NCBI RefSeq assembly: GCF_002775205.1
Contig: NC_036456.1
Span: forward strand, 6,277,463 to 6,341,462
Reading direction: 5' to 3'
Origin: Xiphophorus maculatus
Taxonomy: Eukaryota > Chordata > Actinopteri > Cyprinodontiformes > Poeciliidae
Length of the DNA: 64,000 nt
In this document: one piece after another, positions 1,277-62,913 of the stretch
How positions within the stretch are numbered: position 1 is the stretch's first letter
How the letters are laid out: each line of letters opens with the position of its first letter
Made by a program: the position numbers and the translations under genes
The notes under the pieces: model-generated
What the model saw: the letters and a program-made list of their open reading frames with translations, nothing else
The model's database searches: none
What the model was told of the DNA's origin: nothing

Positions 1277-3583
1277 TTATTCTCCTGGAGGATGTTGAGA
1301 ACAGATAAAGTTAAACTTCTCTGGATCGTTTTTCTTAAACCACTGATGTTTTCCTCCCGTCTCCATGGCTCCAGACATGTCACAGTCGTCCATCGGTCCA
1401 TCTTGGTTCCAGTTCTTATAGATGACCACCTCGTCACTGACCCAGAACCACAAATCCAGAGTGCAGGCGTAGTGCAGACCCGTCCAGACAAAAGGAGTTG
1501 AAGCAAACTGGGCTATTTGCTGGACCAATCTCTGCTCATCAGAGTCGGTGATGGTGACCAGGCCATGGTGGTTCTCTCTGCAGTAGTTCAAGGCGTCCTC
1601 CCAGGTTTTATTTTCTTTGATCAGGATCACTGTACTTTCTGTTGAAATAAGGAAAACAAACATCTTATCTGTAGCTTTACTCAGGCCGTTATTGTGGACT
1701 AATAGTTTATCCCTCAGTTTATCCATCCTTCTTAAAGGGTTAGTATTATGTGTTTTCTAGGTACATAGTGTCATTTTATAGCATAATCAAGTAACTATGC
1801 TAACTTGAGTTGTGATAATAATGTTTTATGGAAAAGATAACTTTTAGAAATCTTACATAACAATTTAATGCCTTATAATTGAGTCTCTGTCTCTTTAAAA
1901 AATTCCTGCTCGTTCTGAAACTCCGCCTTCAGGAAGTCATCAGAGAATGACTCCTCTATGAAACTATAGCATTCTTTTAATCCGCTTTTCACTGAGGAGT
2001 GGCTCGTATAATGAACTCAGAAATGTGCAGAGTTCATTGTTGCTAATTGCTATTGGCTAGTCTGAAGGAGCTGAATGAAGGAGTTGTGGGGGAGCACCAA
2101 ATTGTTGCTAAGGGAGATTAAGGAATTTCTAAAACATGCATGGAGAATCAAGGTAACATTTCAAGTATGTTTTTGATGAGCAAATAACATTATAAAATGA
2201 TGTTAAATAGATTTTACATAACACTGCCCCTTGAAGAAAGTCTCTGAAATATGTGTTTCATTTGAATACCAATAATGGATCAGACTTTAATTTCATTAAT
2301 ATGCACCATAACACCAAATTCAACTTTTAGATATAAGTGGAACCAAACCTTTGCAAGAAAAAAAAATTAACAATAAGAAAGAAGGATTTGGTTTAAAATA
2401 GGACAATTTTAAGAGTCACAATTTTGATGCAGAAAAAAACTAAATCTAATTCAGTATTTGTATATATGGTGCTTATAAACCCAGAGAAGGCTACAGCAAA
2501 AAAAAAAAAAGAAAAGTGAACTTGCTCCCAATTGTTTGACCAGGAATGTACATGCAAATAAAAAACAACATCTCACCATCATAACAGATGAAAGGTTTTT
2601 TCTTGTCACAGTTCTCATTCCTCCATCTGCCTCCATCATTAAACACAGTCATGGCACATTGACCACTGTTGATTTTCTGATTGTTAAACTGTAGATTCCA
2701 GTGTCTAAAGGAGGAACTGTTTCCGTCTGACCACCTCCAAGTGTCACTGAACAGACCAATAAAGATGTACCTTGAATTTGCAGTCATTAAATTTAACCCC
2801 TTGTTCACTTCTCCATCCTGTAGTTGCTTCATTCCACTGATCAGGTCTGTGTGATTCGCTCTGCAGTAACTCTGAGCTCCTGTCCAGTTCTTTGCTGCAT
2901 AAATCAAGTGGTATTTCTGTGATGAATTATTTTCTGTGAAATAAAGACAAAAGAGCACAAAGCATGTAATTCATAAACATCATTGAAAGGCTTTAGACAA
3001 AACCAAATGACTATTTTCTCACCATTATAGCAGATAAAATTGTGCTGGTCATTACAGGATAAATCTCCCCACTTGAGAAAATTAGAGTCATCTTTCCATA
3101 TAATCCCACAGTTTTGACCTTCAGATCCAAGATTATTTGGTTCATCTGCTGCCCAGTTTGTCTCACTTTTATTGAACTCCACTCCAGGCAGAGACCAGTA
3201 CCATGCTCTATTGACGTTTCTTTGGTCATACAGACCAATCCAAACTTCCTTTATATCTCCTAGTGAGACACTGATGAGTCTCTTCATGTCCTTCATGTTA
3301 GTCACTGTGGCCAGGTCAGTGTGTTTCTCTCTGCAGTACTGCTGAGCTTCAGTCCAGGTTTTATTCTCATTAATGTAGTGAAACTCATACAGCTGACAGT
3401 CCATCAGATAATTCTGAGCTAAAAACAAAACAGAAAGAAAACAGTTTTAAATCACATTACACCAGAATAAAACTTTTCTTGATTTCTCATCCAATGGTTT
3501 TATGAGGGCATAGACAAAATCTCCATAATATTTATTCAGAGCAACTTACCCATCACAGTAAGAAAGAACACATACCGCTGCAT
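1277..3583 (-). CDS. secreted three-CTLD C-type lectin (copy 2)
   Basis: Four coding exons read on the minus strand: 3550-3583 (signal peptide, MQRYVFFLTVMG), 3023-3418, 2577-2933 and 1277-1638. All introns are phase 1, with GT donors and AG acceptors. The total is 1149 nt, giving 382 aa. Each large exon is one C-type lectin domain: CTLD1 has WIGLYDQ, an EPN tripeptide and CNDQHNFICY; CTLD2 has WTGAQSYC and KPFICYDG; CTLD3 has WEDALNYC, WFWVSDE and FNFICSQHP. No membrane segment follows the third domain, so the product should be secreted. EPN in CTLD1 is the family's mannose-type calcium site, but the partner motif reads WGD rather than WND, so sugar binding is uncertain. CTLD2 and CTLD3 lack EPN/QPD. 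A probable 5' UTR exon ends with a donor near 3725. It is a tandem paralogue of the 6576-9055 gene; an immune or mucosal role is inference. Confidence 0.85.
1733..2232 (+). mobile_element. nonautonomous TIR element, family TTAAAGGGGCAGT, copy A
   Basis: About 500 bp starting TTAAAGGG and ending CTGCCCCTT, inside the last intron of the left lectin gene. Internal blocks (CTGAAACTCCGCCTTCAG, GCTAATTGCTATTGGCTAGT, ACATGCATG) recur in the copies at 27664-28668, 34830-35355 (inverted) and 39032-39668. No coding capacity was seen. The superfamily is not clear. Confidence 0.7.
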
Positions 3584-3666
3584 GTTTACTCTAGTTGTGT
3601 AGAGATAGACGCTAGAGGAAAAGTCAATGTCAAACAATGAATAGAATTTCTAGAAATCCCATCCCA

Positions 3667-3668
<2 letters not shown>

Positions 3669-3700
<32 letters not shown>
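3669..3700. repeat. (AAT)n microsatellite
   Basis: About ten tandem trinucleotides, roughly 90 bp upstream of the signal-peptide exon of the left lectin gene and near its presumed 5' UTR intron. Confidence 0.9.
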
Positions 3701-3900
3701 ACTGTCATGAAAGACAAACTTACATTTGATTATGTCCGTTCACAAGGATTCAAAATAATCCAACAGTTTGATGTTTAGTTGAAGACAGTCCTCAGGGAAA
3801 TGCTAGGTGCCTGACACCGATCTCTTGTTTTAGCACCTCGACTGTATTTGAATATTCAAACTTTCCAAAAAAAAAAAACCTATGCTGATTATATGCGTCA

Positions 3901-4691
3901 TGGAATCCTACGGAGCCCCTTAGGGGACATGGAGAGAAAAAAAAAAAGGAAAGAAATCCCGACTTATTATCTCGAGATCCCGACTTATTATCTCGAGATC
4001 CCGACTTATTATCTCGAGATCCCGACTTATTATCTCGAGATCCCGAGATCCCGACTTATTATCTCGAGATCCCGACTTATTATCTCGAGATCCCGACTTA
4101 TTATCCCGACTTATTATCTCGAGATCCCTCGACATTTCTGAAAAATCGCGAGTTACTTTTTTTTGGGGGGAAAGGCATGTTTTTATGCGGTAAACGTGGG
4201 GGAGTGTGTCTACATTGATTATGGAGGACGACTTATATCATTTTCTGCGGTCCAGAGATGTTCCAGAGGACTGTAGCTGGTTATTAATGAATTCTACCAA
4301 AACTGCCAAGTCGGAAAAGGACTTGCGCCGAATGAGTCCCCGCGCTCTGAAAACTCTCTTCAGATGTCTCTCACTAATACTAAATCCATGTCTGCTGTCA
4401 AGCACTGATTTAATGTGTTTATACTCAAGCCCAAGCTCGAAATAAAAATCTATATATCTACCCCATGGGTGGGTGTCCTCCATCACTGTGATTAGGTCGT
4501 TATGTACTGATGTCGGGATCTCGAGATAATAAGTCGGGATAATAAGTCGGGATCTCGAGATAATAAGTCGGGATCTCGAGATAATAAGTCGGGATCTCGA
4601 GATAATAAGTCGGGATCTCGAGATAATAAGTCGGGATTTCTTTCCTTTTTTTTCTCTCTCCATGTCCCCTTAGGGGCTCCGTAGAATCCAA
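3901..4691. mobile_element. inverted-repeat DNA element with 21-bp subterminal repeats
   Basis: The ends are inverted copies: TACGGAGCCCCTTAGGGG near 3909 and its reverse complement near 4667-4685. Inside each end lies a run of a 21-bp unit built on TTATCTCGAGATCCCGAC, about seven units on the left (3957-4127) and six on the right (4512-4636), in opposite orientation. The middle carries a short integrase-like reading frame on the minus strand. This is the architecture of a cut-and-paste transposon with complex subterminal repeats that has lost most of its transposase. No clear target-site duplication was found. It sits between the two lectin genes. Confidence 0.75.
4238..4483 (-). pseudogene. 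integrase/transposase N-terminal fragment
   Basis: A frame of about 82 codons starts MEDTHPWGRYIDFYFELGL and continues through SERHLKRVFRARGL and LVEFINNQLQSSG. The helix-rich pattern with an ISERHLKR-type recognition helix resembles the region ahead of the rve catalytic core in animal DDE integrase-like transposases (IS3EU or Ginger type; the assignment is from memory and uncertain). No catalytic core follows, so this is a remnant or a nonautonomous derivative. Its frame also runs back into the subterminal repeats, which encode only Arg/Ser/Leu/Ile repeats. Confidence 0.5.
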
Positions 4692-5707
4692 AGCAACTGG
4701 AAAGTCAGGTCAGGTTTCATTACAAATTTTTGAAGTGTGTTTTTGTTTTCTTCCTTTTCCAGTTTACATCAGAGACATGTGGCCTGCTGGGTTCTGCAGT
4801 TTTTTTTTTTGTTTTGTTTTAATTGCTTCATCGTCATTTGACCCAACTTAGTTGGTTTCAGCTTAATATTTCAGTTATCTTGATTTCCTAAATTCTCTAC
4901 AATCTTTAGCAGACAGAATTGGTTATACAAAAAAGCACAAACAACAATTTCATTAGTGAAACTGCTGAGCTTGTTTAAAGAGCTGGTTTCACAGAACCAA
5001 GGTCCCATGTTCTGAATAAGACTGTTTTAAAGTTAAATTAAAAAAAAAAAGGAAATGAACTGTGTTAGTGTTGTTCATGTTACATCATTGTCATATTTCA
5101 CTTTTGATTCCACACGTATAGGAAAACATGCAGCAGATGTTGCTTTTATGAAATACATCACATGACTTACTAACCTCTCTGGAGAAGCACAGAGTTTGCA
5201 GAATCGGGACCTTTTAAAAAAATGCATTTGTACTAAGGACTCAAAATTCATAAATCAAAGTGAGACGACACAAAGAAACCTGAAAGAACATATCGTTTTA
5301 ATGATCCAATTCAGTTTCTCACAGAAAAACATTAGCATTAGTTTGAAATCTTCATGCTGACAGGGATATATATTTTTAATTGGAAATATACCCTAAAGAA
5401 CTCAAACCACCATACTCTCTTTATGCACAATTTGGAAGTGTGTGTGTGCTTCTCTTCATCTCAGAGCCTTAGCCCATTGAGCGAAGCACATACGTAGACT
5501 TATGTTTGGCAAAGCAGGCCAGATATGGAGCTTTTTTAGCTGTATGTATAGCTGCTAAGTGCAAACTACTTTTGATATGAGTGTACTATGCTTAAACAGG
5601 CAATAACAGGATACACACCATGACTGAGTAAAGACAGGAACTGGTTTGTGGCAAATTTGTATCAATAGTTTACATGTGGTAAACACAGAGCAAAAAAAAT
5701 TAATTAA

Positions 5708-6054
5708 TTAAGACACATAACAGACAAAATTAAACCACATATGATCAAATGTTATGAACCACTGATATGGTCTTCCCGTCTCCATGGCCCCTGACATGTC
5801 ACAGTCATCCATCAAGTCATTTGAGGCCCAGCTCTGATAGCTGACCACCTGGTCTCTGACCCAGAACCAGAAATCCAGAGTGCAGGTGTAGCGCAGACCC
5901 ATCCAGACTAGAGGACTTGTGGCCTTCTTGACTTTCTCCTGGACCCATATTTGGTCATCCATGTTGGTGATGGTGACCAGGCCATGGTGGTGATCTCTGC
6001 AGTAGTACAAGGCGTCCTCCCAGGTTTTACTTTTGTTGATCAGAATCAGTTTAT
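5708..6054 (-). CDS. spare terminal CTLD exon, alternative or orphan
   Basis: The acceptor ends in CTGCCAG at 6055-6057. It is followed by a phase-1 CTLD exon: WEDALYYCRDHHHGL, WMGLRYTCTLDFWFWV, DDCDMSGAMETG, then FNFVCYVS and stop. The upstream and central parts are nearly identical to the last exon of the neighbouring lectin gene (6576-6931), acceptor included, but the last 20 or so residues diverge and the tail is shorter. It has no signal peptide exon of its own nearby and sits about 520 bp beyond the first terminal exon. It could act as an alternative last exon or be a recent nonfunctional duplicate. The frame is open throughout, so it is not visibly broken. Confidence 0.65.
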
Positions 6055-6575
6055 CTGGCAGTGAAACAGGTAATGCATCAAACCTCTGAAACCTGTATCT
6101 CTATATCTACCATTATCTCTGTCACTACTAAGAATTTAGATAATCTCATCTATGCAGCAATAACTTCTAGCTGCTGTCCACCAGTTGAAATCCAAATTGT
6201 GAGCATGGATGAAGGAAAAATATATTTTAAATCTAAGGAATAAATAAATCAGTAGATATTTTGGTTATACTTTATTGTCTTTTTTTTTTTTGATACACAC
6301 AGTAATGTAATAATTTAATAGAGTGATCAATTAAACAGGTGAGCAACCTGGATAGCTTGAGAATACAAACATGAATATTATTAGATTAAATTTAAAACAA
6401 GTTATATGTGCTTTGAAAAGAAACATAATTACATGATACATATGCATATGAGGTAAAACAGAACAAAATCCAAACAGCATAACCTACAATGTGAAATCAA
6501 TTCCTCTTCTACATACAGTATATCAGCTTTTATATACAAGAATATGAGAACAAGTGGTGTTTAATACATCACTTA

Positions 6576-9055
6576 TTAACCTAGAGGATGTTTAGAACAG
6601 ACAAAGTTAAACATGTTGGCATCATTTCTTTTAAACCACTTGTATTCTCCTCCCGTCTCCATGGCTCCAGACATGTCACAGTCGTCCATCAATTCATCTG
6701 AGGCCCAGTTCTGATAGCTGACCACCTGGTCACTGACCCAGAACCAGAAATCCAGAGTGCAGGTGTAGCGCAGACCCATCCAGACTAGAGGACTTGTGGC
6801 CTTCTTGACTTTCTCCCGGACCCATATTTGGTCATCCATGTTGGTGATGGTGACCAGGTCATGGTGGTGATCTCTGCAGTAGTACAAGGCGTCCTCCCAG
6901 GTTTTACTTTTGTTGATCAGAATCAGTTTATCTGGCAGTGAAACAGATAATGCATCAAACCTGAACCACCGATCCAGCTGTTGTGTTGAAGCCTGGAAAT
7001 GCGTTTATACTGGGCTTTGAAAAACAGCAACGCCCAGGACATACACACTCATGCTAATCCAAAGTAAACATTAGCATGTCAATGACTTTCATTGACTGAA
7101 TTGTTTACAACATGATATGCAATATTACAGTTCATATTTCAAGCAAGTAGATTATGTTGTTTTATAGTGACAGATGTTGAAGAAAAACTCACCATCATAA
7201 CAGAAGAAAGGTTTTGTAACAGAGCAGTCCACATTCTTCCATCTGCCTTCACCACTGAATTCAACCAGGGCACATTGACCGTTGTTGTTTTGCTCATCAT
7301 CAAACTGTAGATTCCAGTGTCTGAAAGAGAAACTGCTTCCATCTGACCACCTCCAGGTGTCTCTGAACAAACCCATAAACACATATCGTAGTTCGTTTTG
7401 CAGGCTGCCTGTCGAGCTCAATACTTTCCTCAGTTGTTCATCAGTCACCTGGTCCAGTCCACTGACCAGGTCTGTGTGCTCCTTTCTGCAGTAACTCTGA
7501 GCTGCCAGCCAGGTCTTACTTTGCTCTATCAGATGGAATTTATCTGAAGTTTTTCTTTCTGTGGAGAGACAGTCAATGGGAGCAGGATGGGTTAAAAGTC
7601 AGGGACAGTTTTAAAACCCCGAGAAAACAAAAAATGAAAATCTAAGCTTTATAAAAGTGGCCAGTTTGCCCTACATCAGCCAAAGCCTATAGCAGCACAG
7701 CTACAGAGGTAGCTCAGGATAAACTTACGCTTTAGTCGAAAGTTTTAAGCCGAGTTTTGAAAGTTGACAGGCTGCCTTACTCAGACTGCAACTGGGAGCT
7801 CCTCCTCAATGAGGAGGTCTAAAATTAGAGACATAAACCTCATTGATATCTATCGGAAATCTTGCTCCACCTGCAACTCTGCTTCCCCGTCCGGACTCTC
7901 GCATCCCAGCATTTTGGAGAACTAAGAAATTCAGCAAAATAAATGTAAAAATTTTTTTTTTTTAAAACTAGAGCAGCTGTTCCATCCAAAGTGGGATGAA
8001 ATGTGTCTCTCAGGATCAGATTAGGTTTCCCCCGAAATGTTCACCAATAAACAAAGTAGCTCAATTTGTTTTCTGGACACCACCTACGCAACCAGTGGTG
8101 GAATGACAGCAGGGTGCTAGTCACGACGCCATGGGTCAGATCAGTTAGGGGACCAGAGAAAATGACAGAATCTGGCGCTGTTTTAATACATTTACACACT
8201 GAAGTAAGTTACTGTTGATCACCGTAAGCAAGGTGTCGTTACCACCAGCATTAATAAGAGTTTTACTGGTATCCTTAGCTACCAGTTTTAAAAAAAAAGA
8301 TTTGATATCGCCTCCTCTGGCTGTAGGCAAACATTTCCAACTGTGGACTTTTAAGCCCACACTTACCACAGTGGGCTTAAAAGTGGGAATATTTTCATTG
8401 TTGTATTTCTTTTTTATATATTTATTTTAAGAGGGCAAAAAACAAGACCAATTAATGACACAAAACAATCTTACCATTATAGCAGAGAAAGTACTTCTCT
8501 CTGTTGCAAGAGATGTCGCCCCACTTTAGACTTTCTAAAATAAACCCACAGTTTTCAGTATCATGATCATCTGGCTCAGCATTGTCCCATTCTGTTTCAT
8601 TCACATCGAACTCCACTCCAGGTAGAGACCAGTGCCATTTCCTGATGCCATTTGTCTGACCATACAGACCAATCCAAGCTTCTGCCATTGTTCCTGGTGA
8701 TTTGCTGAGGAGTCTGGTCAGGCCTTCCATGTTAGCCACTGTGGCCAGGTCAGTGTGTTTCTCTCTGCAGTACTGCTGAGCTTCAGTCCAGGTTTTATTC
8801 TCATTAATGTAGTGATACTGATAGAGCTGACAGTCCATGAAGCAACACTGAGCTGTAAACAACAGAAAAGAAATTAAGTGAATGGTTTGTATTTAAAAGT
8901 CTTTTTTTTCTGTTTTGTAATCTGAAGACTTTGAATTAGCTGTAAGAATTTGATCAAAATTGTAAACCAATTGATCCGGCAACCAAAATTGTATTTATAA
9001 TGTTTATTCAGAACCACTCACCCAACAGAATGAGGAGGAAAAGGATCAGCGTCAT
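6576..9055 (-). CDS. secreted three-CTLD C-type lectin (copy 1)
   Basis: Four coding exons on the minus strand: 9022-9055 (signal peptide MTLILFLLILLG), 8475-8852, 7193-7558 and 6576-6931. All introns are phase 1 and the sum is 1134 nt (377 aa). CTLD1 has WTEAQQYCREKHTDLATV, WIGLYGQ, an EPD tripeptide where EPN would be expected, and WGDISC. CTLD2 has YCRKEHTDLVSG, GLFRDTWRWSDG and KPFFCYDG. CTLD3 has YYCRDHHHDLVT, WFWVSDQ and FNFVCSKHPLG. There is no transmembrane segment. A 5' UTR exon probably ends at a GTAAGT donor near 9508-9514. The layout and exon phases match the gene at 1277-3583, so the two are tandem duplicates. The EPD triplet and absence of WND make classical calcium-dependent mannose binding doubtful. 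Confidence 0.85.
8347..8384. repeat. short perfect inverted repeat
   Basis: Fourteen-base arms (ACTTTTAAGCCCAC and its complement) flank a 10-base spacer, in the intron between CTLD1 and CTLD2 exons of the right lectin gene. It may be a decayed MITE end; no function is evident. Confidence 0.6.
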
Positions 9056-58259: not shown

Positions 58260-58852
58260 AGAGCGGGAAGGTTCTTTTGTTTCCTAGCGCCGTTCTAAAA
58301 CAAACACCTTTTCCCGATTGCCTGACAGAAGAACAGGACCTCAATGTTTTTCCTGGTGTGGTCGTGAGATTCACAGGTATGAACTGCTTGCGCTGGCGCG
58401 TATTTAGAGCAGCACAAGTGTGACGGGTTTTAACCGGGACACCTAATTCCTGAACAACGAGACCAGACATGAGCAGAGCGCACCGCTCAGCAACAGCTGC
58501 TTTCGGGACTGGAGTCATGATTTACAGCAAGGTTTTTATTTGCATGCCTGATGGGGCAAAACCTTCTGAATCATTTAAACTCTGAAGCAACACTTCAACT
58601 CAACAGTTCACAGGAAGAAGAGAGAGAAAAAAAAGCAACACCGCGGAATATGACAATATCTCATCCTGCAAAAATGGAAAAAGAGCACCTCGGCGTAATT
58701 ATGAGGTCTTCTAATAATGTTCTGTGGAACTGCTCAGGCTGATTTTCCTACTTTCATGCGGTTGAGGTGCAGAGGCCACTACACTGCATTCTGGTGAGAA
58801 TAAAGTAGCTAAAGGATTAGCTTATTTACAAACCGCAACAGTAAAATCAGTA
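58260..58852. other. upstream flank of receptor gene
   Basis: Probably includes a leader exon and promoter of the receptor gene; no clear TATA box. No CDS was recognised. Confidence 0.4.
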
Positions 58853-59398
58853 ACAGTGTCTTGCAAGCGTATTCATACACTTTGAACTTTCCATATTTTC
58901 TGACATTAAAACCACAAACATGAATATGTTTCACTGGAATTGTTTGTGAGAGGCCAACACAAAGTGGTATACAGTTGCAAAGCGGAAAGAAAGTTATACA
59001 TGATTCTGAAGATGTTATACAAATAAGAAACTGAAAACTGCGGTGTGAAAGTCAGTACTCTGTTGAACCACCTTTTGCTTCAATTCCAGCTTCAAGTCTT
59101 TTAGTTTTTATCTAGTTTGCACGACTAGTGACTGAAATTTTTGCTCATTCTTCTTCGCAAAACAGCTCCGGCTCAGTCAGATTAGATGAAGAGCGTATGT
59201 AAGCAGCAGTTTTCAGATCTTGCCACAGGTTCTCAATTAGGTTAAAGTCTGGACTTTGACTGGACCATTCTTACACATGAATGACGTTTTGTTTTAAACA
59301 GACTCAAAGCGATTTTCTTCCACGATTGCCCTGTAGTTGGCTCCATTCATCTTCCCATCAGCACCGACCATCTTGGTTTTTGCTCTTCCAGTGCATGA

Positions 59399-61723
59399 CT
59401 AATAGTTTTCCCGTGAACAGATTCCTTCACCTGAGCTGTGGATCTCTGCACCTGGTCCCGAGTCAGAGGCCAGTCCTGACTCAGAGGCCGGACAGGACTC
59501 AGAGGCCGGTCCCGAGTCAGAGGCCGGACAGGACTCAGAGGCCGGTCCCGAGCCAGAGGCCGGACCGGACTCAGGGGCCGGTCCCGAGCCAGGGGCCGGA
59601 CCGGACTCAGAGGCCGGTCCCGAGTCAGAGGCCGGACAGGACTCAGAGGCCGGTCCCAAGTCAGAGGCAGGTCCTGAGCCAGGAGCCGGTCCCGAGCCAG
59701 GGGCCAGTCCCGACTCCGAGGCCGGACAGGACTCAGAGGCCGGTCCCGACTCAGAGGCCGGTCCCGAGTCAGAGGCCGGTTCCGAGTCAGAGGCCGGTTC
59801 CGAGTCAGAGGCCGGTCCCGACTCAGAGGCCGGTTTCGAGTCAGAGGCCGGTCCCGACTCAGAGGCCGGTTCCGAGTCAGAGGCCGGTTCCGAGTCAGAG
59901 GCCGGCCCCGACTCAGAGGCCGGTTCCGAGTCAGAGGCCGGCCCCGACTCAGAGGCCGGTTCCGAGTCAGAGGCCGGTCCCGAGTCAGAGGCCGGCCCCG
60001 ACTCAGAGGCCGGTTCCGAGTCAGAGGCCGGTCCCGAGTCAGAGGCCGGACCGGACTCAGGGGCCGGTCCCGAGCCAGGGGCCGGACCGGACTCAGAGGC
60101 CGGTCCCGAGTCAGAGGCCGGACAGGACTCAGAGGCCGGTCCCAAGTCAGAGGCAGGTCCTGAGCCAGGAGCCGGTCCCGAGCCAGGGGCCAGTCCCGAC
60201 TCCGAGGCCGGACAGGACTCAGAGGCCGGTCCCGACTCAGAGGCCGGTCCCGAGTCAGAGGCCGGTTCCGAGTCAGAGGCCGGTTCCGAGTCAGAGGCCG
60301 GTTCCGAGTCAGAGGCCGGTCCCGACTCAGAGGCCGGTTTCGAGTCAGAGGCCGGTCCCGACTCAGAGGCCGGTTCCGAGTCAGAGGCCGGTTCCGAGTC
60401 AGAGGCCGGCCCCGACTCAGAGGCCGGTTCCGAGTCAGAGGCCGGCCCCGACTCAGAGGCCGGTTCCGAGTCAGAGGCCGGTCCCGAGTCAGAGGCCGGC
60501 CCCGACTCAGAGGCCGGTTCCGAGTCAGAGGCCGGTCCCGAGTCAGAGGCCGGCCCCGACTCAGAGGCCGGTTCCGAGTCAGAGGCCGGTCCCGAGTCAG
60601 AGGCAGGGCGAGGCTCAACATTTGGTCCATTGTTAAAAACGTCTTCACTCTCTTCTGAATCCTCTCCACAGCAGACAGCCTGTTCAATCCACTTCCACAC
60701 CTTTCTAATATAAGTTTTCTTAAAATGAATTTTCCTTGGACGTGCCAGGGTTCTTCGGAAACTTTCGTTTAGTTTGTAAATGACTAGCGGGTTTTCACTT
60801 TTTATCATCTTAAACAATAATTCTTGAACTACGTCATCATTTCCGCTCAGAAGTTGAAATATGTCTTGGCCGAGTTTTGTCTCCATCTCCTCAAAAATTA
60901 CAAAATCTATGTCCTTTACTGCTTCCCAAAGTTTTGGACCAAGCTTTTTGTGGACGGGGTCGGTGTCCTTCATTTTATAAGCACCATAGCTGGATCTGTA
61001 ACTAGATATGTAAATCAGTCTCCAAAATATTCTTTCCACCATATTCCTCCTTTGAGCTTCAGTTCCCCGTTTAAATCCCATCTCATTTGCGTCCTTCAAA
61101 AACTGTTCCGGATCCATTTCTGCCTGAGTGTAAGCCTCACTCAGGCAATCTTCGTCACTATACAAATCCTCATTCGGAAAAAATGTCCTTCTGATCTTTA
61201 TTTTCGTATTTGTAAACATTTTCCTTTTAGGAACAGGATTCTCCAAGTGGCGTTTGAATTTTCTCACGATAAATGCATGTCCTTCTGGGTAGTCGAGTAG
61301 GGCAATCAAATTAAGTCCTGAAGCAAAGTGGAACGCGTCCCTCGCAATGCTTTGAAAAATTCTTTCGCTGAGTTCCTCTGATACGTCTGAAAGAACGTCC
61401 ACTTTTATTTCCCCTGTTTTCCTCAGCAGTAAGGCCAAAAGTTTTTTGTGTTGTTCAGAAAAGATTTCTCTGACGAGATGCATGGTGGGGCCGTCTGCCA
61501 CTTTCCCTATTATTTTCCAAAGAAGTTCTCCAAGAAATTTCTTCTTCCTATAATCTGGGGTGGTTTGCCCAGGATGAACTCTGTTAGAACACGTCTTCCT
61601 GACTTTGCTCCAAAAGGAGACCTTGGGTCTCACATAAACGTCGCTTTCGTTGCTCATCTTTATTCCGTCAGCTAAAGTGTCCAAATGAATTTTGTGTTGA
61701 CTGACACAAAACTGTGATGTCAT
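59399..61723 (-). CDS. unrecognised intronless protein with PAS-repeat tail
   Basis: A single open frame of 774 codons; Met1 lies inside a palindrome, and Met23 (MSNESDVYVRP, ATG at 61657, context AAGATGA) is the likelier start. Residues 24-370 are helix-rich and charged with no family I recognise: VSFWSKVRKTC, LVREIFSEQHKKLLALLL, LNLIALLDYPEGHAFIVRKF, IFWRLIYISSYRSSYGAY, FEEMETKLGQDIFQLL. No signal peptide or membrane span was seen. From about 371 to 755 the chain is a hexapeptide array, PASDSG/PASESG with E, C, K and PAPGSG variants, acidic and probably disordered. The last 19 or so residues come from Tc1 sequence. It could be a captured or domesticated gene, a fragment of another element, or an old retrocopy. 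The globular half has normal-looking codons and no break. Confidence 0.6.
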   Translation of the reverse strand: MTSQFCVSQHKIHLDTLADGIKMSNESDVYVRPKVSFWSKVRKTCSNRVHPGQTTPDYRKKKFLGELLWKIIGKVADGPTMHLVREIFSEQHKKLLALLLRKTGEIKVDVLSDVSEELSERIFQSIARDAFHFASGLNLIALLDYPEGHAFIVRKFKRHLENPVPKRKMFTNTKIKIRRTFFPNEDLYSDEDCLSEAYTQAEMDPEQFLKDANEMGFKRGTEAQRRNMVERIFWRLIYISSYRSSYGAYKMKDTDPVHKKLGPKLWEAVKDIDFVIFEEMETKLGQDIFQLLSGNDDVVQELLFKMIKSENPLVIYKLNESFRRTLARPRKIHFKKTYIRKVWKWIEQAVCCGEDSEESEDVFNNGPNVEPRPASDSGPASDSEPASESGPASDSGPASDSEPASESGPASDSGPASDSEPASESGPASDSEPASESGPASDSEPASDSEPASESGPASDSKPASESGPASDSEPASDSEPASDSEPASDSGPASESGPASESCPASESGLAPGSGPAPGSGPASDLGPASESCPASDSGPASESGPAPGSGPAPESGPASDSGPASDSEPASESGPASDSGPASDSEPASESGPASDSEPASESGPASDSEPASDSEPASESGPASDSKPASESGPASDSEPASDSEPASDSGPASESGPASESCPASESGLAPGSGPAPGSGPASDLGPASESCPASDSGPASESGPAPGSGPAPESGPASGSGPASESCPASDSGPASESCPASESGLASDSGPGAEIHSSGEGICSRENY
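59457..60606. repeat. 18-bp minisatellite with 486-bp higher-order repeat
   Basis: About 64 copies of an 18-bp unit near GGCCGGTYCCGAGTCAGA. A marked subset (GGACTCAGGGGCCGG, then CCCAAGTCAGAGGCAGG and AGTCCCGACTCCGAGG) recurs exactly 486 bp later (for example 59571 and 60057), which is 27 units. Because 18 is divisible by three and the unit lacks stops, several frames on both strands stay open. Confidence 0.9.
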
Positions 61724-61810
61724 GGACTATGACATCACAGAGGCATCCTTAGAAGGGCCTCCTGGCACTGACATCATTTGAAATCAGGCTGATGACATCA
61801 TTGTCAGCAG
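61712..61810 (-). promoter_or_regulatory. TGACATCA cluster and palindrome ahead of the unknown ORF
   Basis: A perfect palindrome (CTGTGATGTCAT and its complement, spacer GGACT) lies at 61712-61740. Further TGACATCA sites follow near 61769 and 61792. TGACATCA is a one-base variant of the CRE. The first ATG of the ORF lies within the palindrome. Confidence 0.4.
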
Positions 61811-62187
61811 CATGGCAACTGTTGCTGGGGTACTAATAGCTCACAGTGAGCATGCGCTATGAAAATAAATCATCTGTGGGCACTAAATACATTATTTCCA
61901 CAAGTCTGAACTGGAAGTGACCTGCGCAGATTCGCCAGAACAGGTTGGGCCAGGGAACCATTGGTCCCTCCACTTTACCCCCCTACACATTTTTATTAGT
62001 GTGAATGAAAGCTGCAGGCATTCATTCACACTACTGAGTTCCACTTTCCTGGTTGCTCCGTAAATTTCGCCACGCTTCTTCTCCTGCATACTTTGTGCTA
62101 TTTTCACCATTCAACTTTTATACTACTCAGCTTGCTCTCCTAATGCCGGCTGTAACTCTTGACTCCTCCCTTCCTCATTTCCTTAGT

Positions 62188-62330
62188 GTAAAGCCCAGCG
62201 CACACGACACGATCTTAGAGCTGTCGGCAGATTGTCGGCCCATTTTCAAAACCTGACAGACCACACATTAGCCGACAGAAATCCTAGGTATAACGGTTCG
62301 ATCGGGTTCGTTCCTGCCGTGTGGTTTCCA
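62188..62330. repeat. possible MITE fragment
   Basis: AAAGCCCAGCGCACACGACACG, a GTCGGCAGATTGTCGG direct-repeat block, and TGCCGTGTGG toward the right suggest a small inverted-repeat element inserted inside the Tc1-bounded segment. The bounds are tentative. Confidence 0.3.
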
Positions 62331-62913
62331 ACAATGGGCACAAAATAATGGCTACAAGTCCAGTGAACTAATTTTAAAACCAGGCATTAATTAATGCTTT
62401 ACTACAATCTACCTGCAATGCATGTAACTAGTGTCAGCGTAAAGTCCTGACCGAATGAAAATCATTAGAACCTGTTTACGTCACGTTAACGAAGAACAGC
62501 TGAAAAGTTACCGGTTTATAAACTGCGGTAGCAATTTCGCTCATAAAAAATCGCATCATTTTCAGTGTAAAAAGGTCTTCAAACAATATTATCGTTTATC
62601 GCAATAATTTTTGAGACAATTAATCGTTCAGCAAACAAACGCCTAAATCCACAGAGCGGCTGGATTTGTAGCAGCCGTCAAGCGACTTCTGAAAGCACCT
62701 AAAGAAAAGGGGCTTGAACACTTTTTTTACACCACACTTTTCAGTTGTTTTTTTTTTTTTTTGTAAATAACATTTTGAATCTTGCATATTTTTCCCTCCA
62801 CTTCACACCTGTACACCACTTTGCGTCGGCCTTTCACATAAAATTCCAATGAAATATATTCATGTTTGTGGTTGTGTATTGTGTAGACGGCGTGAATACT
62901 TTTGGAAGCTGTA

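Follow-up and report, generated by a model that had tools for sequence, protein, structure and literature searches.

Cut-and-paste elements that capture genes are familiar from plants, where Pack-MULE and Pack-TIR elements do so, and are less well known in vertebrates. In bacteria, composite transposons have the arrangement IS-gene-IS. The platyfish itself has provided a related case: a DNA transposon, a Helitron, took up and dispersed texim, a multicopy gene encoding an SGNH hydrolase (PMC4021074). Two readings are left open there, namely that texim helps the transposon or that it is a host gene that got mobilised (PMC4021074).

The stretch analysed here (the window) comprises 64,000 nucleotides of the platyfish, Xiphophorus maculatus (contig NC_036456.1, positions 6,277,463 to 6,341,462). 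Within it, a decayed Tc1 copy spans positions 58851-62913 and is interrupted by an insert of approximately 3.2 kb. The original prediction described inverted Tc1 ends around this insert and an intact frame within it, and both are borne out: the arms (58910-59030 and 62753-62873) are 121 nt in length and 78% complementary, and the insert carries a 752 amino acid (aa) open reading frame (ORF) on the minus strand. What interrupts the old Tc1 copy is the 5' portion of another, distinct element, the family of which has inverted ends, 8-bp target site duplications (TSDs) and the ORF (Table 1). Very probably, the old Tc1 was struck by a separate, ORF-carrying, composite hAT-like element, a deletion followed and the ORF family became a spreading passenger.

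Table 1. Features of the interrupted Tc1 copy and its insert in the window.
Feature	Positions	Strand	Basis and remarks
Tc1 left piece	58851..59448	minus	TA at 58851-58852, TIR, internally deleted body, last letters ...GTGGATCTCTG
Orphan ORF, 752 aa	59399..61657	minus	~347-aa family domain, then PASDSE-like six-residue repeat tail
Nested hAT-like element, 5' part only	59449..62645	minus	L018 matches; family evidence
18-bp minisatellite coding repeat tail	59454..60604	minus	63.9 copies; nested element is broken at the 59.45-kb edge
Cassette upstream region, promoter/5' UTR candidate	61658..62159	minus	Matches upstream DNA of L046-L049
Remains of 5' hAT-like unit (R)	62160..62645	minus	R 23-104 and R 754-1113 kept, intervening part deleted
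Tc1 right piece, same copy as the left one	62650..62913	minus	TIR, TA at 62912-62913; L052 and L050/L051 terminal matches

The first 348 residues of the ORF match 72 places in its own genome (window copy included), with an E value of 2.8e-221 for the best match other than the window copy, showing that the frame is more than a chance occurrence. At 42 of the 72 places, the match covers at least 300 of the 348 residues without a stop; two matches of that length contain stops and 28 are shorter. The members that stand farthest from the rest are at C2:25710442, C1:12895963 and C18:2918560. The frame in the window runs from stop to stop over 59399-61726 of the minus strand (775 codons, with an ATG at 61657). 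The 18-bp array makes up its 3' half, and residues 737-752 (approximately 16) are encoded by Tc1 DNA. The ORF had been called unknown, and within the databases covered this description holds: searches of Pfam, PDB and IMG/VR turned up no relative of the protein, and two IMG/VR scans gave no viral relatives. Pfam matches to RimP_N and others (E 0.02-1) were below the curated cut-offs and were taken as chance, as was a match to a PDB chain (E 0.13). Single-sequence fold prediction was poor (mean pLDDT 41). No account of the ORF family was found in a literature search that had most subscription journals outside its reach.

Element structure was read in 20 stretches, including the window copy (L009). 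The gene forms a cassette consisting of approximately 500 bp of upstream DNA, the ORF, the repeat tail and, in many cases, part of an L1-type reverse transcriptase that has been truncated. Both hAT-like ends (TAGGCCTGTC...GACAGGCCTA) are present in 13 of these stretches, while in the other seven, which include the window copy, the DNA read does not contain both ends. In the 13 two-ended stretches, to which the TSD check was limited, the 8-bp flanks are identical in 10, agree at 7/8 positions in two and show no duplication in one (L013). Both the TSD length in these 13 stretches and the short TIRs (TAGGCCTGTCACGATA / TATCGCGACAGGCCTA, shortened in the window copy) are as expected of hAT elements. 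An 8-bp TSD also fits other superfamilies, and the class assignment is drawn from TSD length and end sequence, with no transposase seen, so that the nested element could belong to another TIR superfamily with an 8-bp TSD (for example, a Zisupton-like one). Nothing decisive speaks against this alternative, which we consider unlikely; short TIRs of this kind are hAT-like in appearance.

On either side of the cassette is one copy of a hAT-like unit (R) of approximately 1.26 kb, both copies in direct orientation. A search with R found two units in 17 of the 20 stretches, and L015 and L018 retain the second unit in full (1,263 bp). The layout is thus unit-gene-unit with use of the outermost ends, which are those adjoining the 8-bp TSDs; the exceptions are L010 and L019, in which the first unit is reduced to mere scraps, and L026, in which it is set apart from the cassette. 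Genome-wide, the 24-mer of the 5' end (at most one mismatch) has 350+403 occurrences, compared with 0 for a reversed control. The hAT dimerisation domain PF05699 has 149 genome matches (150 of 563 candidates scored); none of these is tied to the ends described here, and none lies within L014 or L018, where the individual frames scanned were the L018 reverse transcriptase frame and members of the ORF family. By eye, 15 hAT-domain places among those listed on C1-C4 are all more than 20 kb away from any of the ends listed.

Pairwise dN/dS values are 0.07-0.40 among the pairs listed, bar one of 0.64. Variants shared between copies have an N:S of 58:101, compared with 43:23 for private variants (Fisher p = 1e-4) and 8:2 for the private changes of the window copy. 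Within the copies compared, this contrast shows strong purifying selection on shared variation and much less on the private changes of single insertions. The N:S of private changes is nonetheless lower than random change would give (p = 0.009), so that decay is incomplete across the set. Third-position divergence in the ORF is 0.082, approximately eightfold that of upstream DNA (0.010) and fivefold that of the adjoining L1 fragment (0.017); the low upstream divergence may be partly due to constraint. A hypermutating ORF was considered as the source of this excess. Against it, 34% of informative ORF site pairs are incompatible with one tree, and minor alleles often occur in older subfamilies (105/134 shared sites versus 21/53 singleton sites). 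Three observations favour hypermutation, or at least argue against simple ORF swapping: third-position and L1 distances correlate (0.70), incompatible pairs drop just slightly within 100 bases (0.317 versus 0.340 in shuffles, with 0.023 of shuffles as low), and singleton density is raised at third positions (0.110 versus 0.038 in L1, in a 17-copy set).

Selection on shared over private variation would also be expected if only mobile lineages persist, and so bears on whether the ORF is a mere passenger or an accessory gene borne by the hAT-like element, aiding its amplification (selfish). In favour of an accessory gene, on C2 three loci belonging to the 65-66% class also have this 5' end, 1.7-2.1 kb upstream and in matching orientation, which links it to two divergent ORF lineages. 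However, selection on source genes together with gene conversion yields the same pattern of variation; the 753 ends compare with some 45-50 ORF loci, such that most ends have no ORF copy; and the cassette is also present at loci where no hAT-like ends were found (L046, L047 and L049). The link between end and cassette at L048 may be a chance neighbourhood, as unmatched DNA lies between the two and no 3' end was found there. An accessory role is thus not the likely reading. Also rather unlikely, taken as a whole, is an account in which a single composite hAT-like family acquired an orphan fish gene family repeatedly, the gene product serving the element: the protein lineage would be constrained and single insertions decaying, with old coding variation reshuffled by RNA- or conversion-mediated exchange that was largely transcript-limited.

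In the window, the 5' end of the nested element is at 62645, where the shortened TIR reads TAGGC. The element is broken at 59449, the edge of the 18-bp array, and its 3' part and the middle of Tc1 are absent; a 16-mer of the element end (up to 3 mismatches) had no match in the window copy. With the 3' end of the nested element deleted, its own TSD inside the Tc1 of the window cannot be shown. Compared with L018, the terminal unit is identical at 82/82 bases and 96.6% identical over 349 bases, and the core is 91.9% identical over 1,560 bases. The cassette upstream region, which contains a palindrome with 12-bp arms (CTGTGATGTCAT-GGACT-ATGACATCACAG) at 61712-61740, is approximately 71-86% identical, where aligned, to four older-class copies (L046-L049). 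Relative to other family members, identity of the insert is 95-100% in the terminal part and 92% in the cassette, whereas Tc1 is approximately 75% identical to its own kin. Judged by these sequence identities, the nested element is younger than the decayed Tc1 copy. Of the two origins first proposed, insertion of a different element into Tc1 is the one supported, in that the insert is a member of a family scattered through the genome that has ends and 8-bp TSDs of its own.

The outer element is bordered by TA on each side and its ends are inverted, as expected of Tc1/mariner: its CAG...CTG termini adjoin the two TA dinucleotides, with one extra A at 58853. The copies that match it are presumably Tc1, and the comparison itself is one of DNA matches. 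The first 450 bases of the left piece (58853-59448) are 73-75% identical to L051 and L052, which are Tc1 copies of the same genome, and the piece is colinear with L051 up to L051 position 978. These genomic copies are also matched by the right piece, which aligns with L052 at 1087-1105 and 1185-1262 as well as with the terminal regions of L050/L051; its inner edge (62650-62668), which begins at most 5 bases from the end of the nested element, agrees with L052 1087-1105 at 18/19 bases. Since both pieces match the same genomic copies in order, they can be read as the ends of a single Tc1 copy, as the single-element reading had it. Independent insertions flanking the element by chance would account for the complementarity of only 78% and for the internal gaps that each piece has relative to other Tc1 copies, but are very unlikely: placed on a single Tc1, the two pieces are correctly ordered and oriented and leave one main gap, in the middle, and TA is found at the outer border of both. 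From the alignments, 58851-59448 and 62650-62913 are one Tc1 copy, which is merely the landing site of the nested element. The ORF was also placed on the strand of the Tc1 transposase; this stands if overlapping minus-frame residues (...QRSTAQVKESVHGKTISHAL...) are Tc1 transposase, as we take them to be, while Pfam returned no match for this putative 37-residue remnant.

Capture of a host gene by Tc1 itself, mobilised by the Tc1 ends between which the gene lies, is extremely improbable and was rejected on the ends, the duplications and a direct check of other copies: relatives of the cassette among the copies read have hAT-like ends and 8-bp TSDs, not Tc1 ends and TA, the insert includes the 5' end of another element (up to 62645), and Tc1 is approximately 75% like its kin compared with 92-100% for the insert. 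The same insert was not found between Tc1 ends in the other stretches read, as the Tc1 pieces of the window match only L014 (67 bases) and L024 (114 bases) among the 19 other stretches, in both cases outside the ends of the elements.

Under the preferred reading of nesting followed by deletion, the element would have landed in Tc1 in the orientation of the transposase. A later deletion probably took its 3' part together with the Tc1 DNA between the insertion point and 59448, and joined the 18-bp array to Tc1, giving the ORF tail its approximately 16 Tc1-derived residues. A hAT transposase supplied in trans would move the composite as one piece, and by moving in this way the orphan gene family would have become a passenger and spread. 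The protein was presumably selected in the source lineage, with most single insertions, including the window copy, probably decaying.

A suspected Tc1 capture thus becomes a clear case of nesting. It provides a vertebrate case with dozens of copies, TSDs, an intact frame with selected shared variation and a composite layout, and a testable system both for how such composites form in animals and for whether captured genes persist by helping the transposon or through retention of the source gene by the host. Like bacterial composites, the family carries a gene flanked on both sides by a smaller, putatively mobile unit and uses the outermost ends; unlike them, it is found in an animal genome, its units are direct and approximately 1.26 kb in length, no transposase gene is seen and the inner ends are often deleted. 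It resembles Pack-MULE and Pack-TIR elements as a non-autonomous TIR element with other coding sequence, but differs in that its frame is long, intact in many copies and accompanied by an upstream region of its own, with strong purifying selection on the shared variation. As in the texim/Helitron system, a multicopy gene has been captured and spread by a fish DNA transposon and the same two readings apply (PMC4021074). In contrast to texim, the ORF in the window has no known relative, and its carrier has hAT-like ends, 8-bp TSDs and a two-unit layout.

The open reading frame (ORF) between the two ends of a decayed transposon, which we take to be of the Tc1 type, belongs to a second, dispersed element nested in that transposon. 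The original prediction of Tc1 ends enclosing an intact unknown ORF describes a real structure, with inverted arms, TA borders and a 775-codon frame. The arms are 121 nucleotides in length and 78% complementary, and TA is present at both outer borders (with one extra A at the left). Both Tc1 pieces matched other copies in the same genome, three of which were read (L050, L051 and L052). The left piece is colinear with L051 from the terminus to position 978, with internal gaps; the right piece matches L052 at positions 1087-1105 and 1185-1262 and in the terminal repeat, and the Tc1 body is absent between the match points of the two pieces. Judged from these alignments, both pieces are assigned to one copy.

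Coordinates of features in the window
Feature	Position	Strand	Remarks
Tc1 copy	58851-62913		decayed outer element
Right Tc1 piece	62650 (start)		
Nested element	62645 (start) to 59449 (end)	minus	shortened end TAGGC at start; ends at edge of 18-bp array
Open frame	59399-61726	minus	775 codons, between Tc1 pieces
ATG of ORF	61657	minus	752 aa from this codon
18-bp minisatellite	59454-60604		63.9 copies; 3' half of ORF
Palindrome	61712-61740		12-bp arms CTGTGATGTCAT / ATGACATCACAG; 55-83 bases 5' of ORF
21-bp arrays	3956-4128, 4512-4637	opposite orientations	motif ATCCCGACTTATTATCTCGAG
143-aa frame	4238-4669	minus	contains second 21-bp array
Presumed mobile element	3956-4669		
Paired frames	1277-8892	minus	several frames, in repeated pairs

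The first 348 residues of the ORF protein matched 72 places in the 704.3-Mb genome, the query locus included; 42 of these are stop-free over at least 300 residues, 2 are equally long with stops, and the remaining 28 are shorter. By identity, the full-length copies group into classes of about 89-93%, 72-76%, 65-69% and 43-47%. When a member of the most distant class was used as the query, the 63 rows returned held no full-length relatives beyond those already listed. The copies are in part clustered: 11 of the 21 closest intact copies lie in a 3.4-Mb stretch (C4:26.4-29.8 Mb), and four copies of the 75% class form a local tandem array at C12:26.175-26.196 Mb, in one orientation and with a spacing of 6.4-6.9 kb.

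Twenty stretches of approximately 10 kb were read (L009 to L028), including the window copy (L009) and a stretch with two ORF copies in tandem, 4.5 kb apart (L026). In most copies, pairwise matches among the stretches stop at a common point approximately 1,600 bases 5' of the ATG, where the border reads TAGGCCTGTCACGATA; the opposite end reads TATCGCGACAGGCCTA. Both ends are inside the DNA read in 13 of the 20 stretches, and 10 of these 13 have identical 8-bp flanks (L014, L015, L016, L020, L021, L022, L023, L025, L027 and L028). The flanks agree at 7 of 8 bases in L010 and L018, and no 8-bp match was found in L013 despite the presence of both ends. In the other seven (L009, L011, L012, L017, L019, L024 and L026), an end is either absent or beyond the DNA read. 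The two-ended copies are 4.8-7.5 kb from end to end, except for L010 (2.9 kb).

Besides the ORF, L014 and L018 contain direct repeats of 1.0-1.1 kb (94-98% identity) and a reverse transcriptase frame (RVT_1 in L018, E 5e-35). When the stretches were searched with the terminal unit, R, two copies were found in 17 of the 20 and a single copy in each of L009, L011 and L024. Only scraps of the first copy are present in L010 and L019, and the upstream copy of L026 lies approximately 1 kb from the shared cassette (upstream region, ORF and repeat tail). The second unit is complete in L015 and L018 (1,263 bp, with its own 5' end) and begins at R position 83 in L027, directly after the repeat array. 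The carrier layout is unit-gene-unit, with target duplications adjoining the outer ends. The upstream unit of L026 has its own 3' end, and the L026 cassette shares approximately 140 extra upstream bases with an older-class copy; this arrangement is perhaps a stage preceding composite formation.

The alternative that a different element had inserted into Tc1 is thus correct, given a dispersed carrier family with its own ends and 8-bp duplications. Gene capture by Tc1, also proposed originally, fails: in the other copies read, the cassettes are without Tc1 ends, and Tc1 matches occur only outside the elements. When all 20 stretches were searched with the window's Tc1 pieces, the matches outside L009 were limited to 67 bases of L014 and 114 bases of L024 (69%, E 8e-5), both external to the elements' ends. 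The L024 fragment is immediately outside that copy's 5' end; there, another element may have inserted next to a Tc1 remnant.

In the window copy, Tc1 sequence starts at most 5 bases from the 5' end of the nested element. Retained are R positions 23-104, which agree with L018 at all 82 bases, and 754-1113 (96.6% over 349 bases against L018), followed by a cassette that is 91.9% identical to that of L018; the copy lacks the 3' end of the element, the second unit and any L1 fragment. The arrangement of these segments is observed directly; from it we infer insertion followed by deletion: in the simplest history, the element would have inserted into the Tc1 copy, and one deletion would have extended from within the array to Tc1 position 59448. 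Given this history, ORF residues 737-752 (16 residues) would be read from Tc1 DNA. The palindrome upstream of the ORF, partly present in L010, carries two CRE-like half sites.

More divergent copies L046, L047 and L049 (75%, 74% and 68%) have approximately 430-650 upstream bases in common with other copies, and no carrier ends were found in 7.5-8 kb with up to 3 mismatches allowed. By coordinates, three C2 loci of the 65-66% class are preceded at a distance of 1.7-2.1 kb by the same carrier 5' end, in matching orientation, which links the carrier end to two divergent ORF lineages, the second link being the weaker. One of these (L048) was read: DNA without a match lies between its unit and its cassette, and no carrier 3' end was found in the DNA read. 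The 24-mer of the carrier 5' end occurs 753 times in the genome at up to 1 mismatch (reversed control, 0). PF05699 was found at at least 149 places in the genome (150 of 563 candidates scored); by eye, none of the 15 listed on C1-C4 is within 20 kb of any listed carrier end. The superfamily name (hAT-like) thus derives solely from the ends and duplications.

Among the pairs listed, dN/dS was 0.07-0.40 (values with dS >1 being unreliable), except for the close pair L033/L034 (0.64). Among 20 ORFs of the mobile group, shared variants were 58 nonsynonymous (N) to 101 synonymous (S) and private variants 43 N to 23 S (Fisher p = 1e-4); even private changes are below the random N:S expectation of 3.8 to 1 (p = 0.009). 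Constraint thus acts chiefly on the lineage and to a lesser degree on individual insertions. Private changes in the window copy number 8 N and 2 S, a result that its decay would explain.

In the 136 pairs formed by 17 copies that carry the L1 fragment, the mean divergence of ORF positions was 0.082 (third), 0.021 (first) and 0.015 (second); that of the L1 fragment was 0.017, and that of the 500 upstream bases 0.010. Third-position divergence is approximately 5 times that of the adjoining L1 fragment and 8 times that of the upstream region, with the switch near the start codon. Among ORF site patterns, 34% of pairs are incompatible with one tree, with heavy homoplasy, and ORF and L1 distances correlate (0.70). 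We tentatively favour a reading in which old variation has been reshuffled among ORFs that sit on a younger carrier; constraint upstream or faster change in the ORF is a less likely alternative.

An alignment of 17 diverse members has 365 columns with many invariant positions. The protein had no Pfam match above cut-offs, no relative in a PDB sequence search (one chain at E 0.13) and none in IMG/VR contigs; a single-sequence structure model is all-helical and poor (mean pLDDT 41). In the distant relative at C18:2918524 (L042, about 43%), the repeat tail is of another kind, built of RRQSADVGGSDF units; the family may therefore have acquired repeat tails more than once. Elsewhere in the window, the paired frames resemble C-type lectin domains and are perhaps a tandem lectin cluster.

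The nested element is an instance of gene capture by a DNA transposon, a phenomenon already known. A literature search, with most subscription journals outside its coverage, found no description of this ORF family. The nearest published parallel found is texim, a captured multicopy gene on platyfish Helitrons, the benefit of which is unclear (PMC4021074). The ORF-bearing element differs from texim/Helitron in carrier type, layout and protein.
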